A DNA stretch of 52,346 bases from Bacteroidales bacterium (lineage in GTDB: Bacteria; Bacteroidota; Bacteroidia; Bacteroidales; UBA932): positions 1 to 52,346 of the forward strand of contig DUNA01000004.1 in the NCBI GenBank assembly GCA_012839605.1. The letters run 5' to 3'. Numbering within the stretch: position 1 is the first letter of the stretch; each line of letters opens with the position of its first letter. Of the stretch, positions 11,144-30,000 are shown one piece after another. The notes below the pieces were generated by a model. The model worked only from the letters and a program-made list of their open reading frames with translations. It was not told where the DNA came from and did no database searches. The translations under genes and the position numbers were made by a program.

Positions 11144-12520
11144 ATGGATTCAAGAAAATTATTAAACCTGGCGCTTAGTAAAGGTGGAGATTATGCAGAT
11201 CTTTATGTTGAGAAATCCTTCTACAACACCATAACATTGCAAGACGGAGAAGTGAACGCTGCGGGAGTTCATCAAGAAGGAGGTTTAGGTATCCGAGTTG
11301 TTAAAGGCCAAAACACAGGCTATGCGTTTACAGAAAGCGCTGTTCCTTCTGATCGTGAAAAAACAGCCCTTATTGCTTCTCATATTGCCAACAACGGAGC
11401 TGTCGTAAAAACAGCAGACCGTTTTACAACAGCACAATTGCCTAACAGATATCCTTCTCTGATTCCATGGGAAAGTATGTCCGTCCATGATAAAATGCCT
11501 TTTCTTTACCGGTTGAATGAACTTATCTTTGAGCAAGACAAACGAGTAAGCAAAGTCATAGCACGCTTGGAAAACAGCACTTCTTCCATAGATTTTTACA
11601 ATTCCTATGGCGACCATTTTTCAGACATACGTCCTTTGGCTTCTTTACTAGTTGTTTGCATAATGGAACAGAACGGGCACAGAGAAACAGCTTCTGTTTC
11701 CAGATCGTTCAGAATGGGTGCCGAATTTCTGACGCATGAACTCGTGAGTCAATTAGCAAAAGAAGTAACGGAACGTACGGCATTTTTGTTTGATGCCCAA
11801 CAACCAAAAGGTGGAGAAATGCCTGTTGTCATGTCTGCCGGCAGTTCCGGTATCTTATTACACGAAGCCATAGGCCATGCGTTTGAAGCTGATTTTATAA
11901 GAAAAAACGAATCTGTCTTTTCAGACAAAATGGGAGAGAAAATATGTCGTAATGGCATTTATGTAATAGATGACGGCACGTTGCAGGGCAACAGAGGGTC
12001 TCTGAACATAGATGACGAAGGAGTGCCTGCTCAGAAGACATATATGGTTACAGACGGCATCCTCACTTCTTTTTTGCACGACCGCATTTCTGCTCGGTTT
12101 TTTAACACCACTCCTACAGGAAACGGAAGAAGAGAGTCTTTTCGTTATGCACCGCTACCGCGCATGCGTGCCACGTATATGGAGAATGGGAAAGATACGG
12201 AAGAATCTCTTATAGCTTCCATAAAAAAAGGACTGTACGTAGATACATTCAGCAACGGCCAAGTGCAGATAGGTGCAGGAGATTTTACCTTTTTTGTAAA
12301 AAGCGGTTATTTGATTGAGAACGGAAAATTGACACAACCCATAAAAGATACCAACATCATTGGTAACGGTCCTCGAACACTATCTACCATTGCAGGAGTA
12401 GCCAACAACTTACTCATAGATGACGGCACATGGACTTGTGGCAAAGGTCAAACCTGCCCCGTATCATGTGGTATGCCTTCTGTATTGGTTGAATCACTTA
12501 CTGTAGGAGGCCGTATATGA
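11144..12520 (+). CDS. tldD: TldD-type metalloprotease subunit
   Basis: The 458-residue protein is the catalytic half of the TldD/TldE protease. In E. coli this heterodimer degrades unfolded peptides and trims microcin B17 and CcdA. The zinc motif HEAIGH (residues 240-245) is in the family context SSGILLHEAIGHAFEADF, and the C-terminal TCPVSCGMPSVLVESLTVGG segment supplies the conserved Cys. The next gene, pmbA, overlaps by four bases, as expected for an obligate partner. No peptide-antibiotic precursor gene is seen nearby, so a housekeeping role is the likelier one. Confidence 0.93.
   Translation: MDSRKLLNLALSKGGDYADLYVEKSFYNTITLQDGEVNAAGVHQEGGLGIRVVKGQNTGYAFTESAVPSDREKTALIASHIANNGAVVKTADRFTTAQLPNRYPSLIPWESMSVHDKMPFLYRLNELIFEQDKRVSKVIARLENSTSSIDFYNSYGDHFSDIRPLASLLVVCIMEQNGHRETASVSRSFRMGAEFLTHELVSQLAKEVTERTAFLFDAQQPKGGEMPVVMSAGSSGILLHEAIGHAFEADFIRKNESVFSDKMGEKICRNGIYVIDDGTLQGNRGSLNIDDEGVPAQKTYMVTDGILTSFLHDRISARFFNTTPTGNGRRESFRYAPLPRMRATYMENGKDTEESLIASIKKGLYVDTFSNGQVQIGAGDFTFFVKSGYLIENGKLTQPIKDTNIIGNGPRTLSTIAGVANNLLIDDGTWTCGKGQTCPVSCGMPSVLVESLTVGGRI
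12505..12510 (+). promoter_or_regulatory. AGGAGG six bases before the pmbA start
   Basis: A perfect Shine-Dalgarno hexamer sits within the last codons of tldD (the conserved Gly-Gly), at ideal spacing to the pmbA ATG at 12517. Because these bases also encode conserved residues, the match may be incidental. Confidence 0.35.
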
Positions 12521-13830
12521 AAGACAAAAAAATGTTGCAAAAAATGACGGAATACGTCTTGCAATCAGCTCTCAAAAAAGGAGCTTCGCATGTCCGCGTT
12601 ACGGCTGTTAGGGATGTTTCCAATGAACTTACGGTATTAAACCATTCGTTGGAAAAAATCCAAAGTGCGGTAGAATCTGTCTTACACATTCATTTATTTG
12701 TAGACGGGCGTTACGGAACATGTTCCACAAACACAATGCAAACAGGGCACCTGGACAACCTGTTGAATCAGTCCATAGCGTCTATCAAGCTTTTGGCTCC
12801 TGATCCTTTCAGAACACTTCTTCCTAAAGAATTGCAATATAAAGGAGTTCCTCTACGCGATGTTTTTTCCGGAGATGTAGAAACAGAAGAAAAAAAAGAT
12901 CTCCTTTTTTCCAGTACTGCATCCATACAAAATAAAAACCCGGCACTTATCAACGCAACAGCACATTATACAGATTCTATCAGATGGGTACATATTGCAG
13001 ATTCCAATGGATTGCATTGTACATCTGAAAAAAGTTGGTTTGGTTTGCTGACAGAGTGTAGTGTTCTGGGAGAAAACAACACCCGCCCCTCAGACTGGAA
13101 TTTCATAGGAGGAACCAATCCTATACACATCTCTGCCGCCCATGAAAGCATGCGTCAAACACTTGACAGAGCTTTGAACAAAAGAAATCCCAAAAAAGCC
13201 CGTTCAGGCATCTACAACGTAGTTGTTGAAAACAGAGTGGCATCCACGCTCCTTGCTCCTGTTATAGACGCCATATCGGGGGCACAACTTCAACAAAAAA
13301 ACTCTTTTCTTCTAAACAGCCTTGGTCAACGCATAGGCTCATCTGTTCTTACCCTCATTGATGATCCACACAAAACAGGAGTACCTGCATACAGTTTTTT
13401 TGATTATGAAGGAAACGCCACAAAGAAAAGAACAGTCATTGAAAAAGGTATTTTAAATCTTTTTTATTTAAATACGTACCATGCCTCCAAAATGCAAATG
13501 CCTTGTACCATAGCCACCCCTTCCACCTTGCTGCTTACAGGAGGTAAAGGAGATGTGCTTTCTCTGACAAAACAAATGCAGCACGGAATCATCATAACAG
13601 GCTTTAATGGAGGCAATTGCAATACAGCAACCGGTGATTTTTCATATGGCATAGAGGGATTCCTGGTTGAAAACGGACAAATAACCACCCCCATTAATGA
13701 AATGGTCATGACGGGGAACATGATAAACCTTTGGAACCAATTACATATAGCCGGGGACGATGCACAGCCTATTTCTTCCCGGTTACTGCCTTCCTTGCTT
13801 TTTGAGAGCATTGAATTGGCAGGCTTATAA
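12517..13830 (+). CDS. pmbA: PmbA/TldE, partner subunit of the TldD protease
   Basis: The 437-residue TldE homologue lacks the HExxxH motif, as expected for the non-catalytic half that helps form the peptide channel. Recognisable segments are the C-terminal FNGGNCNTATGDFSYGIEGFLVENGQ and the earlier KKARSGIYNVVVENRVASTLL. The ATGA overlap with tldD implies coupled 1:1 expression. nhaC follows eight bases later. Confidence 0.92.
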   Translation: MKDKKMLQKMTEYVLQSALKKGASHVRVTAVRDVSNELTVLNHSLEKIQSAVESVLHIHLFVDGRYGTCSTNTMQTGHLDNLLNQSIASIKLLAPDPFRTLLPKELQYKGVPLRDVFSGDVETEEKKDLLFSSTASIQNKNPALINATAHYTDSIRWVHIADSNGLHCTSEKSWFGLLTECSVLGENNTRPSDWNFIGGTNPIHISAAHESMRQTLDRALNKRNPKKARSGIYNVVVENRVASTLLAPVIDAISGAQLQQKNSFLLNSLGQRIGSSVLTLIDDPHKTGVPAYSFFDYEGNATKKRTVIEKGILNLFYLNTYHASKMQMPCTIATPSTLLLTGGKGDVLSLTKQMQHGIIITGFNGGNCNTATGDFSYGIEGFLVENGQITTPINEMVMTGNMINLWNQLHIAGDDAQPISSRLLPSLLFESIELAGL

Positions 13831-26793: not shown

Positions 26794-27138
26794 TTACTTA
26801 ATAGATTCAATAACGGCTTCAAACGCCTTGGGATTGTTCATGGCCAAATCTGCCAGCACCTTTCTATTTAAACCTATATTGGATTTGTTCACTTTTCCCA
26901 TGAATTGAGAATAAGACATTCCGTGCATGCGAGCTGCTGCATTGATACGTTGTATCCAAAGCGAACGGAACGACCTCTTTTTATTTTTACGATCACGATA
27001 GGCATATGTTAAGCCTTTTTCGTACGTGTGTTTGGCAATTGTCCATACATTGCCACGTGCCAAAAAATTTCCCTTCGTTTGTTTTAAGATTTTTTTTCGT
27101 CTGGCTCTTGAAGCCACTGAATTTACCGATCTTGGCAT
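26794..27138 (-). CDS. rplT: 50S ribosomal protein L20 (bL20)
   Basis: A 114-residue basic protein with the family pattern [40 protein letters not shown] and [16 protein letters not shown]. It is in the universal infC-rpmI-rplT order. L20 often represses its own operon by binding a leader or spacer RNA; the 85-base spacer upstream of this gene is a candidate site. Confidence 0.97.
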
Positions 27139-27223
27139 AATACATCTTCTTTGCGGCTGTCAGCGTTCTCCTCCTCCGAGATACTTTATCAGCTGTGCAA
27201 CCTGATTCATAATTTTTGCTCAG
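27139..27223 (-). other. rpmI-rplT spacer with a 16-codon micro-ORF
   Basis: This 85-base gap is long for the operon. On the minus strand it holds ATG 27210 to TGA 27160, encoding MNQVAQLIKYLGGGER, whose Gly codons are a GGAGGAGGAG tract. An ATCAG/CTGAT hairpin can form near its start. It could be a chance frame or part of an L20 control element. I know of no matching family. Confidence 0.3.
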
Positions 27224-27418
27224 CTATACACAAAGCAATTTTTTAATACGCTTCTCATCTGCCTTATCTACCAAACCGGTGTAGGCCAGATTGCGTTTTT
27301 GTTTTTTTGTTTTTTTAGTCAAAATATGACTGTGGTAAGCGTGTTTCCGCTTCACCTTTCCGGTACCTGTAAGAGCAAAACGCTTTTTGGCTCCGGAATT
27401 TGTTTTCATTTTTGGCAT
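27224..27418 (-). CDS. rpmI: 50S ribosomal protein L35 (bL35)
   Basis: A 64-residue, very basic protein starting [31 protein letters not shown], followed by the [12 protein letters not shown] block. These are the bL35 hallmarks. It lies 25 bases after infC. Confidence 0.96.
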
Positions 27419-27443: not shown

Positions 27444-28046
27444 TTACTTTTTCTTTACGTTTGTTTTCATAGGAGCTATCATCATAATCATGCGCTTTCC
27501 CTCCAATTTGGGCATTTGCTCTGCTTTTCCGTAATCTTCCAAGTCTACTGCAAACCTAAGCAACAGCTTTTCTCCCTGCTCTGTAAAAACAATGGATCTT
27601 CCTCTAAAAAATACAAATGCTTTTACTTTTGCTCCGTCTTTCAGAAATTCAATGGCGTGCTTTAATTTAAATTGATAATCGTGTTCATCCGTATTGGGGC
27701 CAAAACGAATCTCTTTCACAATCACCTTAGACGCATTGGCTTTCATCTCCTTGGCTTTCTTCTTGCGCTGATATAAGAATTTTTGGTAATCCATAATTTT
27801 ACAGACGGGTGGATCTGACTGTGCAGAGATTTCTACCAAATCTAAGTTCATTTTTTCCGCCATCCTCAAAGCCTGAGCAATAGGGTAAATACCCTGCTTC
27901 TCAATATTATCACCTACAACACGCACCTGTGAAGCGGTAATTTCAGCATTGGCCCTTGGGCCTTCTTCCTGCCTTGGAAACCTTGGATTGTATCTGTTAC
28001 TCGGTCGCCTTTGCGGGGCAGGCTTTGGTCTGTAAGATTTTGCGAT
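27444..28046 (-). CDS. infC: Translation initiation factor IF-3 with an ATC start codon
   Basis: IF-3 binds the 30S subunit, checks the start codon and prevents early 50S joining. From ATC 28046 the frame gives 200 residues. A short basic leader ([19 protein letters not shown]) precedes the conserved N-domain [25 protein letters not shown] and [23 protein letters not shown]. The C-domain carries [25 protein letters not shown] and [10 protein letters not shown] start at GTG 27926 would cut into the N-domain. AGGAGG lies eight bases before ATC, and no ATG is in frame. Non-standard starts in infC let IF-3 repress its own translation in other bacteria, and the same is inferred here. Confidence 0.9.
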
Positions 28047-28054
28047 AGTATGTT

Positions 28055-28060
28055 CCTCCT
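28055..28060 (-). promoter_or_regulatory. Strong Shine-Dalgarno AGGAGG of infC
   Basis: Minus strand AAAAGGAGGAACA, eight bases upstream of the ATC start, directly after the thrS stop. It fixes the infC start and is one of very few perfect SD hexamers before genes in the window. Confidence 0.75.
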
Positions 28061-28065
28061 TTTAA

Positions 28066-30000
28066 CTAATTGGTTATTATTTCTATTTCTTTCCGGAGTA
28101 ATATAACAAATTCTTCCGGTTTCATGGTGCCTTGATCTCCTTCTCCTTGTCGACGTACGGAAACCGTGCCGGTAGTCTCTTCTTTTTCTCCAACTATCAG
28201 CAAGTAAGGGATTCTTTTCATTTCATTTTCTCTAATGCGCTTACCTACAGTTTCGTTCCTCTCGTCAATAGAGGCGCGAATATCGGCATTATTCAAGAAA
28301 TCACAAACTTTTTTGGCAAAAACATTGAATTTTTCACTCAACGGAAGCACTACAACTTGTTCCGGTGCCAGCCAAAGTGGGAATTTTCCACCTGTGTGTT
28401 CCAACAATACGGCCACAAAACGCTCCATGGAACCAAAAGGCGCACGGTGAATCATTACCGGTCTGTGCCGCTTATCATCCGCTCCAATATACTCTAATTC
28501 AAAGCGTTCAGGCAAATTGTAATCTACTTGAATAGTTCCCAATTGCCATTTCCTCCCCAAGGCATCTCTTACCATAAAATCCAATTTGGGACCGTAAAAA
28601 GCAGCTTCTCCATATTCTACCTGCGCTTTCAACTGCCTTTCTTCTACAGCATCCAAAATGGCTTGCTCTGCTTTTTCCCAATTGTCATCCGTACCAATAT
28701 ATTTTGTCTTATCTTCTTTATCACGCAATGAAATCTGTATGGTATAGTCTGTGAAACCAAGCGTTTTGAAAATGTACAAAACAATATCTATAACTTTACA
28801 AAATTCGTCCTTCAGCTGATCGGGGCGGCAAAAAATATGAGCATCGTCTTGAGTAAAACCGCGCACACGTGTAAGGCCGTGCAATTCTCCGCTTTGTTCG
28901 TAACGATACACCGTACCAAATTCGGCCAAACGAACCGGCATGTCCTTATAAGAACGAGGTTTGACTTTATAGATTTCACAATGGTGCGGGCAATTCATGG
29001 GTTTGAGTAAAAACTCTTCACCTTCATGCGGTGTTTTGATGGGTTGGAAACTGTCTTTTCCATATTTCTCATAATGACCGCTTGTCACATACAAATCTTT
29101 TTGCCCTATATGAGGCGTAATGACTTGTTCATACCCGTGTTCCTTTTGTACGGCTTTTAAAAAATTTTCCAAACGTTCTCTCAAAGCCGCTCCTCGCGGG
29201 AGCCACAGAGGAAGTCCCTGCCCTACTTTTTGTGAAAAAGCAAAAAGTTCCAATTCTCTTCCCAGTTTGCGATGATCTCTTTTTTTGGCTTCTTCCAGCA
29301 TAACCAAATATTCGTCCAAAAGAGATTTTTTGGGAAATGTAATGCCGTACACACGCGTCAACATTTGTCTGCTCTCATCGCCCCTCCAATACGCTCCGGC
29401 TATGGAAGTCAATTTGATGGCCTTGATGGCGGCCGTATGCGGAATATGCGGTCCCTTGCACAAGTCTGTGAAAGCTCCGTTCGTATAAAAAGTAATGGTT
29501 CCGTCTTCCAAATCTTCTATCAGCTCACACTTGTACTCGTCTCCTTTTTCCCTATAGATCCTCAACGCTTCTTCCTTGCTGATCTCTTGGCGATCAAAAG
29601 ATTGCTTTGTACGGGCCAGTTCGTACATTTTTTTCTCTACTACTTGTAGGTCTGCTTCCGTCAATTGGCGATCTCCGGAATCTACGTCGTAATAAAATCC
29701 GTTTTCCACAGCCGGCCCTATACCAAACTTTATTCCCGGAAACACCTCTTCCAAAGCGGCCGCCATAAGGTGTGACGAGGAATGCCAAAATACTTGTTTG
29801 CCTTGGTCGTCTTCCCATTTCAAAAATTGCACAGCGGCATCTTCCGTTATAGGCAATCTGATATCGGTCACCACATCGTCTACTTTCATAGCCAAGACTT
29901 CTGCTGCCAATCTTGGACTGATATCGTTGGCTACTTCTAGACCGGTGACTCCTTTTTTATATGTTCTTGTTTTTCCGTCCGGAAAAGTAATTGTTATCAT
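28066..30000 (-). CDS. thrS: Threonine--tRNA ligase
   Basis: At 644 residues it has the full architecture: an N-terminal TGS domain ([17 protein letters not shown]), then the editing domain with [11 protein letters not shown] and the later CKGPH. The class II catalytic core has [48 protein letters not shown] and the zinc ligands Cys/His, and an anticodon-binding domain ends the protein. It leads the thrS-infC-rpmI-rplT-lepB unit. Its promoter box ends five bases before the ATG, leaving no room for a leader-based riboswitch or attenuator. Confidence 0.97.

Follow-up and report, generated by a model that had tools for sequence, protein, structure and literature searches.

The infC locus and its start codon

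The window analysed here is a stretch of 52,346 nucleotides from a Bacteroidales bacterium, in which the genes thrS, infC, rpmI and rplT follow one another in that order on the minus strand. The features considered are as follows (SD, Shine-Dalgarno sequence):

28066..30000, minus strand: thrS, upstream neighbour and control; stop codon at 28068-28066, 19 nt before the ATC; no SD
28062..28064, minus strand: TAA, in-frame stop opening the infC frame, read from the sequence
28055..28060, minus strand: AGGAGG, SD core (within AAAGGAGG at 28055-28062), with 8 nt between core and ATC
28044..28046, minus strand: ATC, inferred infC start codon, the sole start-capable codon from the upstream stop to the IF3 domain, barring the Ile codon of the domain
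27444..28046, minus strand: infC (IF3) coding sequence, ATC to stop, identified by TIGR00168, Pfam IF3_N and IF3_C, and phmmer
27224..27418, minus strand: rpmI (bL35), downstream neighbour and control; no SD
26794..27138, minus strand: rplT (bL20), downstream neighbour and control; no SD

infC encodes an ordinary IF3. Its product matches TIGR00168 above the cut-off (profile search, 5.7e-59), possesses both Pfam domains (IF3_N and IF3_C) and matches a solved IF-3 chain (phmmer, 4.4e-41). Read on the minus strand, the stop codon of thrS (TAG) is followed by TTAAAAGGAGGAACATACT and then by ATC GCA AAA TCT TAC; within the infC frame, the TAA at 28064-28062 is followed by AAG GAG GAA CAT ACT and then ATC. 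No ATG, GTG or TTG occurs in this frame of the window between the upstream stop and the conserved IF3 domain. This reading of the frame bears out the preliminary description, in which the IF-3 frame was said to lack an ATG and to start at the ATC at 28046.

The first GTG of the frame lies at 27926 (residue 46) and is also the start chosen by the ORF caller. The Pfam IF3_N match runs from residue 38 (position 2 of the profile) onwards; GTG 27926 was rejected as the infC start because it lies inside this match and would truncate the domain by about eight positions. The only other ATH codon (ATA, ATC or ATT) ahead of it is the Ile codon of the ITAS motif, which belongs to the domain and by eye has no SD. 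That the start has been misread, with IF3 beginning at the ATT of ITAS, at GTG 27926 or at an out-of-frame upstream start, is thus a reading to which we give hardly any weight: GTG 27926 does have in its favour that it is the mechanical ORF start, but relatives share an AUH codon at this position, the SD and, for the most part, GCN as the second codon.

The Shine-Dalgarno element before infC

The preliminary description placed a well-spaced AGGAGG before the ATC, and the spacing of 8 nt confirms it. Against the 16S tail GGAACACCUCCUUUCU, which is one of two variants in relatives, the infC SD forms 8 bp with an energy of -12.2 kcal/mol; 16S rRNA of the genome itself is absent from the assembly, and the energy was computed with the tails of relatives. 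These values fall short of an extended SD of the bS21 type (under -13 kcal/mol, 9-13 bp). The element does have the properties of a strong-SD gene, namely a strong, suitably spaced SD in a genome most of whose genes have none. The hexamer had also been called rare, which holds for an SD in front of a start and not for AGGAGG itself, as the window contains 28 copies against 18.3 expected (a count attained in 3 of 100 shuffles). One of these copies (27170-27175) lies in the rpmI-rplT gap, 31 nt from the rplT ATG and too distant to serve as its SD. Another stands 6 nt before the first ATG of a PmbA/TldD-family gene (12505-13830), possibly by chance.

The initiation region of infC is unstructured: at -4.4 kcal/mol, its fold is no more stable than those of 192 among 200 shuffles. 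An Rfam scan of the window at the gathering score returned a tRNA as its single match and nothing at the infC leader. A structured leader at infC was rejected on these two results.

SD use elsewhere in the genome

SDs before starts are rare in the genome to which the window belongs, near the level of mock windows placed further upstream of the same genes. At least five SD bases at spacing 4-12 were found before 14 of 324 genes (442 kb), against 17, 29 and 18 in the mock windows, and at least six before 6 of 324, against 7, 7 and 8; under the stricter rule applied to infC (below), the count was 8 of 324 against 2, 6 and 5. These figures are approximate because genes were called simply, as the longest ORFs that do not overlap, each counted from its first ATG. 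Together with the neighbours of infC, which seldom carry an SD, they agree with the earlier claim that most genes here lack one.

Two of the six genes with at least six SD bases, a number not above the mock windows, are rpsR and an rplI-like gene. The latter is an ORF (L386:1330-1782, contig C28) that begins MEIILKQDVPNLGDK, lies directly after rpsR and has AAGGAGG 7 nt before its ATG; we take it to encode bL9 (rplI). Certain Bacteroidia have been reported to carry SDs at rplI (PMC9976891, accessible text).

The rpsU gene of this genome, too short for the list of 324, has an 11-base SD match. Extended SDs of 10-11 bases (-16.5 to -18.5 kcal/mol) precede rpsU both here (L061, G000:C63) and in two genomes of the same family (L399, L400). 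According to the accessible text of McNutt 2023 (PMC9976891), no Bacteroidales meet both rpsU criteria (a clear winner, and an energy under -13 kcal/mol); the family of the window may be an exception, as judged from the energy side of that comparison.

Conservation across Bacteroidales

Of 139 genomes of the order searched, 132 had infC, and 129 loci were used. G414, G497, G446 (whose locus L032 is cut at the edge) and the second matches of G420 and G428 were left out, while L206, an edge case, is counted within the 129. G446 has two infC matches, one of which (4.1e-67) scores far above the range of the order, possibly through contamination. An SD was defined as at least 5 bases complementary to the 16S tail, including GGAG or GAGG and ending 4-10 nt before the codon; ATH candidates had to lie at least 10 codons ahead of the IF3 domain. 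SD counts are somewhat low because this rule misses cases of short spacing (L147, L156, L171, L189).

An ATH start with an SD was found in 88 of the 129 loci (ATA in 74, ATC in 7, ATT in 7), and 79 of these 88 have no in-frame ATG before the domain. Spacing is 8 in 57 of them, 7 in 18, 9 in 6 and 5-6 in 7. The other 41 loci comprise 24 with ATG and no SD, 10 with GTG or TTG and neither ATG nor SD, 4 with ATH only, 2 with TTG behind AGGAG and 1 cut at the edge. Among the 128 usable loci, the 88 compare with a mean of 4.3 and a maximum of 11 in 200 dinucleotide-shuffled sets. The same rule applied at the ATG of the neighbours in the same loci gave 1/87 for thrS, 6/126 for rpmI and 1/125 for rplT, setting aside 42, 3 and 4 loci, respectively, without a match or a nearby ATG. 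ATC, the codon of the window, is used by two genomes of its family and by several close named relatives (L052, L059, L064-L066, L069-L072); L062 and L063 have ATT and ATC in tandem, of which the rule selects ATT. From sequence, most sampled relatives therefore appear to have an IF3 gene whose start codon is not AUG but usually AUA, preceded by a strong SD. A comparison of infC 5' regions across Bacteroidales had been proposed as a check on the preliminary description. It came out mostly in favour (88/129), and the 24/129 loci with an ATG and no SD partly correspond to the outcome named beforehand as speaking against it.

The second codon of infC is mostly GCN in these loci and the spacer is A-rich. 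In most of them infC is preceded by thrS, as it is at 19 nt in the window, an arrangement that would suit an SD serving reinitiation, with ribosomes that finish thrS being caught and restarted at the nearby AUH. The distances speak against this: among 86 SD-type loci in which thrS was located, only one has it closer than 18 nt and the distance reaches 648 nt, while 8 of 25 ATG-type loci sit 4-9 nt after thrS (these distances, like the second-codon survey, use slightly looser classes of 89 SD-type and 26 ATG-type loci). We regard reinitiation as improbable.

SD, start codon and anti-SD pairing

Within the order, 79 of the 93 loci that lack an in-frame ATG had an SD at any candidate start, against 11 of the 35 that have one (Fisher 1.3e-8, kinship ignored). 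On independent tree pairs the association was not significant (median p 0.25); the SD differs in about three of eight pairs, nearly always in the expected direction. The only two loci with an SD directly before an ATG, L229 and L230, each have an ATA behind AAAGGAGG as well. Three ATG loci (L149, L178, L210) retain a stranded SD further upstream, which is consistent, on sequence, with recent switches of start; relocation of the start alone could explain the loss of the SD.

General loss of SD use was considered as a cause of SD loss at infC, and the rpsR gene argues against it. Among checked genomes whose infC has an ATG without SD, 11 of 13 keep both SD and ATG at rpsR, compared with 11 of 15 genomes with an ATH + SD infC in which the rpsR SD is kept. 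On these counts the loss at infC seems local.

The 16S tail was readable in 24 of 25 loci from relatives in the order and each contained CCUCC (the partial L324-L328 being left out). SD pairing is evidently in use in the order, as 23 of the 30 best-scoring rpsR loci carry an SD; SDs at rpsR in Bacteroidales are also described in the accessible text of PMC9976891. For rpsU, the rule finds an SD in 5 of 32 loci (the best-scoring 30 plus two of the family), three of the five belonging to the family of the window.

infC beyond the order sample

Eighty named loci comprised 34 with ATH and SD (one of which, L121, looks spurious), 17 with ATG and no SD, 26 with ATH only and no SD, and 3 with GTG or TTG. 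The titles of 22 of the 26 name Flavobacteriaceae or genera assigned there; Winogradskyella, Maribacter, Aquimarina and others are presumably genera of that family. The typical infC start of Flavobacteriaceae (among L090-L140) is ATA GCA ATA or ATA GCA ATT with no SD, and judging by these sequences the gene seems to start at AUA without help from an SD. This contradicts the idea that the SD is indispensable to an AUH start. Records of Bacteroides and Prevotella (L127, L133, L135) have infC with ATG.

Among 62 loci of the class outside the order, 13 have ATH and SD, 16 ATH only (by a rule that wrongly rejects at least L408 and L422), 28 an in-frame GTG or TTG, which need not be the start actually used, without SD or ATG, and 5 an ATG. 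Elsewhere in the phylum, 12 of 30 loci have ATH and SD, one of them also with an in-frame ATG; here the ATH limit was three codons before the domain. Both the class and the phylum loci are biased towards high scorers. No infC match was obtained in 17 phylum genomes, 15 of them from family code f19, the listed members of which score below most others; IF3 may be divergent in that family.

The 12 phylum loci, in which the SD is mostly of the GAGGT type and precedes an AUH codon, suggest that AUH with SD may be ancestral. They would also fit an SD that is a relic of an SD-using ancestor with no present role. This we consider very improbable, as the SD stands at spacing 7-9 in 81 of the 129 loci of an order with more than 100 family codes, in which the genes next to infC seldom carry one.

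Control of IF3 synthesis

The reading towards which we lean is that translation of infC begins at AUC downstream of a functional SD, that IF3 controls its own synthesis and that the SD makes the weak start usable. As judged from sequence and comparison, the infC start differs from AUG, GUG and UUG, the property that marks E. coli-type autocontrol. IF3 represses starts other than ATG, GTG and TTG, and infC limits itself through ATT in E. coli and ATC in Streptomyces (PMC5472188, accessible text). A non-AUG start would likewise place IF3 synthesis under the start-codon discrimination of IF3 itself: infC would be repressed when IF3 is plentiful and released when it is scarce. The SD would anchor the 30S subunit and so make a weak codon usable where other genes mostly do without SD pairing; speculatively, it could also lower the need for IF3. 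Discrimination and feedback at infC are inferred by analogy with E. coli, Streptomyces and S. aureus, and SD-anti-SD pairing on its mRNA is likewise an expectation; the remaining support is comparative, consisting of the start position, the SD, the conservation of both across Bacteroidales, the fact that an infC ATG rarely has an SD in front of it, and the intact CCUCC of relatives. The likeness to infC genes controlled through AUU-type starts, drawn in the preliminary description, is supported by the AUH start. Against this reading, an AUH start does not need an SD (26 of 80 named and 16 of 62 class loci have ATH only), and the association of the SD with a missing ATG weakens once kinship is taken into account.

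A different role for the SD, put forward in the preliminary description, would be to sense the state of the 30S subunit, infC being translated mainly by subunits in which bS21, bS18 and bS6 do not sequester the 16S tail. IF3 output would then be coupled to subunit assembly, like that of bS21 in Flavobacterium. We think this rather unlikely. In F. johnsoniae, where an intact anti-SD is hidden, mutation or depletion of bS21 raises strong-SD reporters and not others; SD-less mRNA strictly needed IF3 for 30S complexes, and IF3-independent complexes formed on rpsU only with subunits carrying truncated bS21, wild-type subunits requiring IF3 (PMC9976891, accessible text). In the genome studied here, residue 54 of bS21, as counted by eye, is a Tyr, a residue mutated in that work, and the rpsU, rpsR and rplI-like genes also carry SDs. 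Against sensing, the infC SD at -12.2 kcal/mol lies within the range of rpsR (-7 to -14) and is weaker than that of rpsU (-14 to -21) (PMC9976891, accessible text). The genomes in which rpsR keeps its SD while infC has an ATG also weigh against it, as does the scarcity of rpsU SDs in the order. Furthermore, the infC SD is mostly missing in named Flavobacteriaceae, the family to which we take F. johnsoniae, in which tail sequestration was described, to belong.

The two roles might be combined in a gate with two inputs, the AUH codon reading the IF3 level and the SD reading 30S subunits with a freed tail, which lack or do not yet hold bS21 or bS18. We judge this unlikely; if true, it would tie IF3 output to small-subunit assembly in cells whose bulk translation ignores SDs.

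Relation to known systems

AUH-started infC genes and SD-bearing exceptions in Bacteroidia are each already known. Their combination, conserved in Bacteroidales, was not found in the open literature searched, though Jha 2021 may mention it; the accessible text of PMC9845219 cites a preprint on genes with a preference for non-AUG starts. The SD-carrying exceptions named in the accessible text of McNutt 2023 are ribosomal protein genes, and "infC" has no matches in the main text of that paper (PMC9976891). Bacteroidia retain an intact anti-SD but conceal it, as demonstrated in F. johnsoniae. infC would be a conserved SD exception outside the ribosomal protein genes, one that would join the anti-SD question to the control of IF3, and the role left to a hidden anti-SD would become testable with a few reporters. 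In practical terms, gene callers limited to ATG, GTG and TTG would get the IF3 start wrong for most of the order as sampled here.

Under the autocontrol reading, the arrangement looks to be a variant, particular to this lineage, of the self-control circuit already known for IF3. With E. coli and Streptomyces it has in common the IF3 gene, an AUH start and a protein of the IF3 family, known here from sequence. Both of those organisms use SDs generally, unlike the Bacteroidales studied here. In S. aureus, infC starts at AUA with a predicted extended SD (PMC13009471, accessible text), and AUA is likewise the commonest infC start in Bacteroidales, also behind a strong SD. The difference is that S. 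aureus relies on extended SD motifs (same source), whereas SDs in the genome of the window are near the mock level in the gene sample. The strong-SD genes of Bacteroidia (rpsU, rpsR and others, including rplI) resemble infC in being exceptional bearers of an SD in an SD-poor genome, the strength at infC being like that of rpsR (McNutt 2023, PMC9976891, accessible text). They differ in that rpsU and rpsR encode proteins that bind the 16S tail and start at AUG, while infC does neither.
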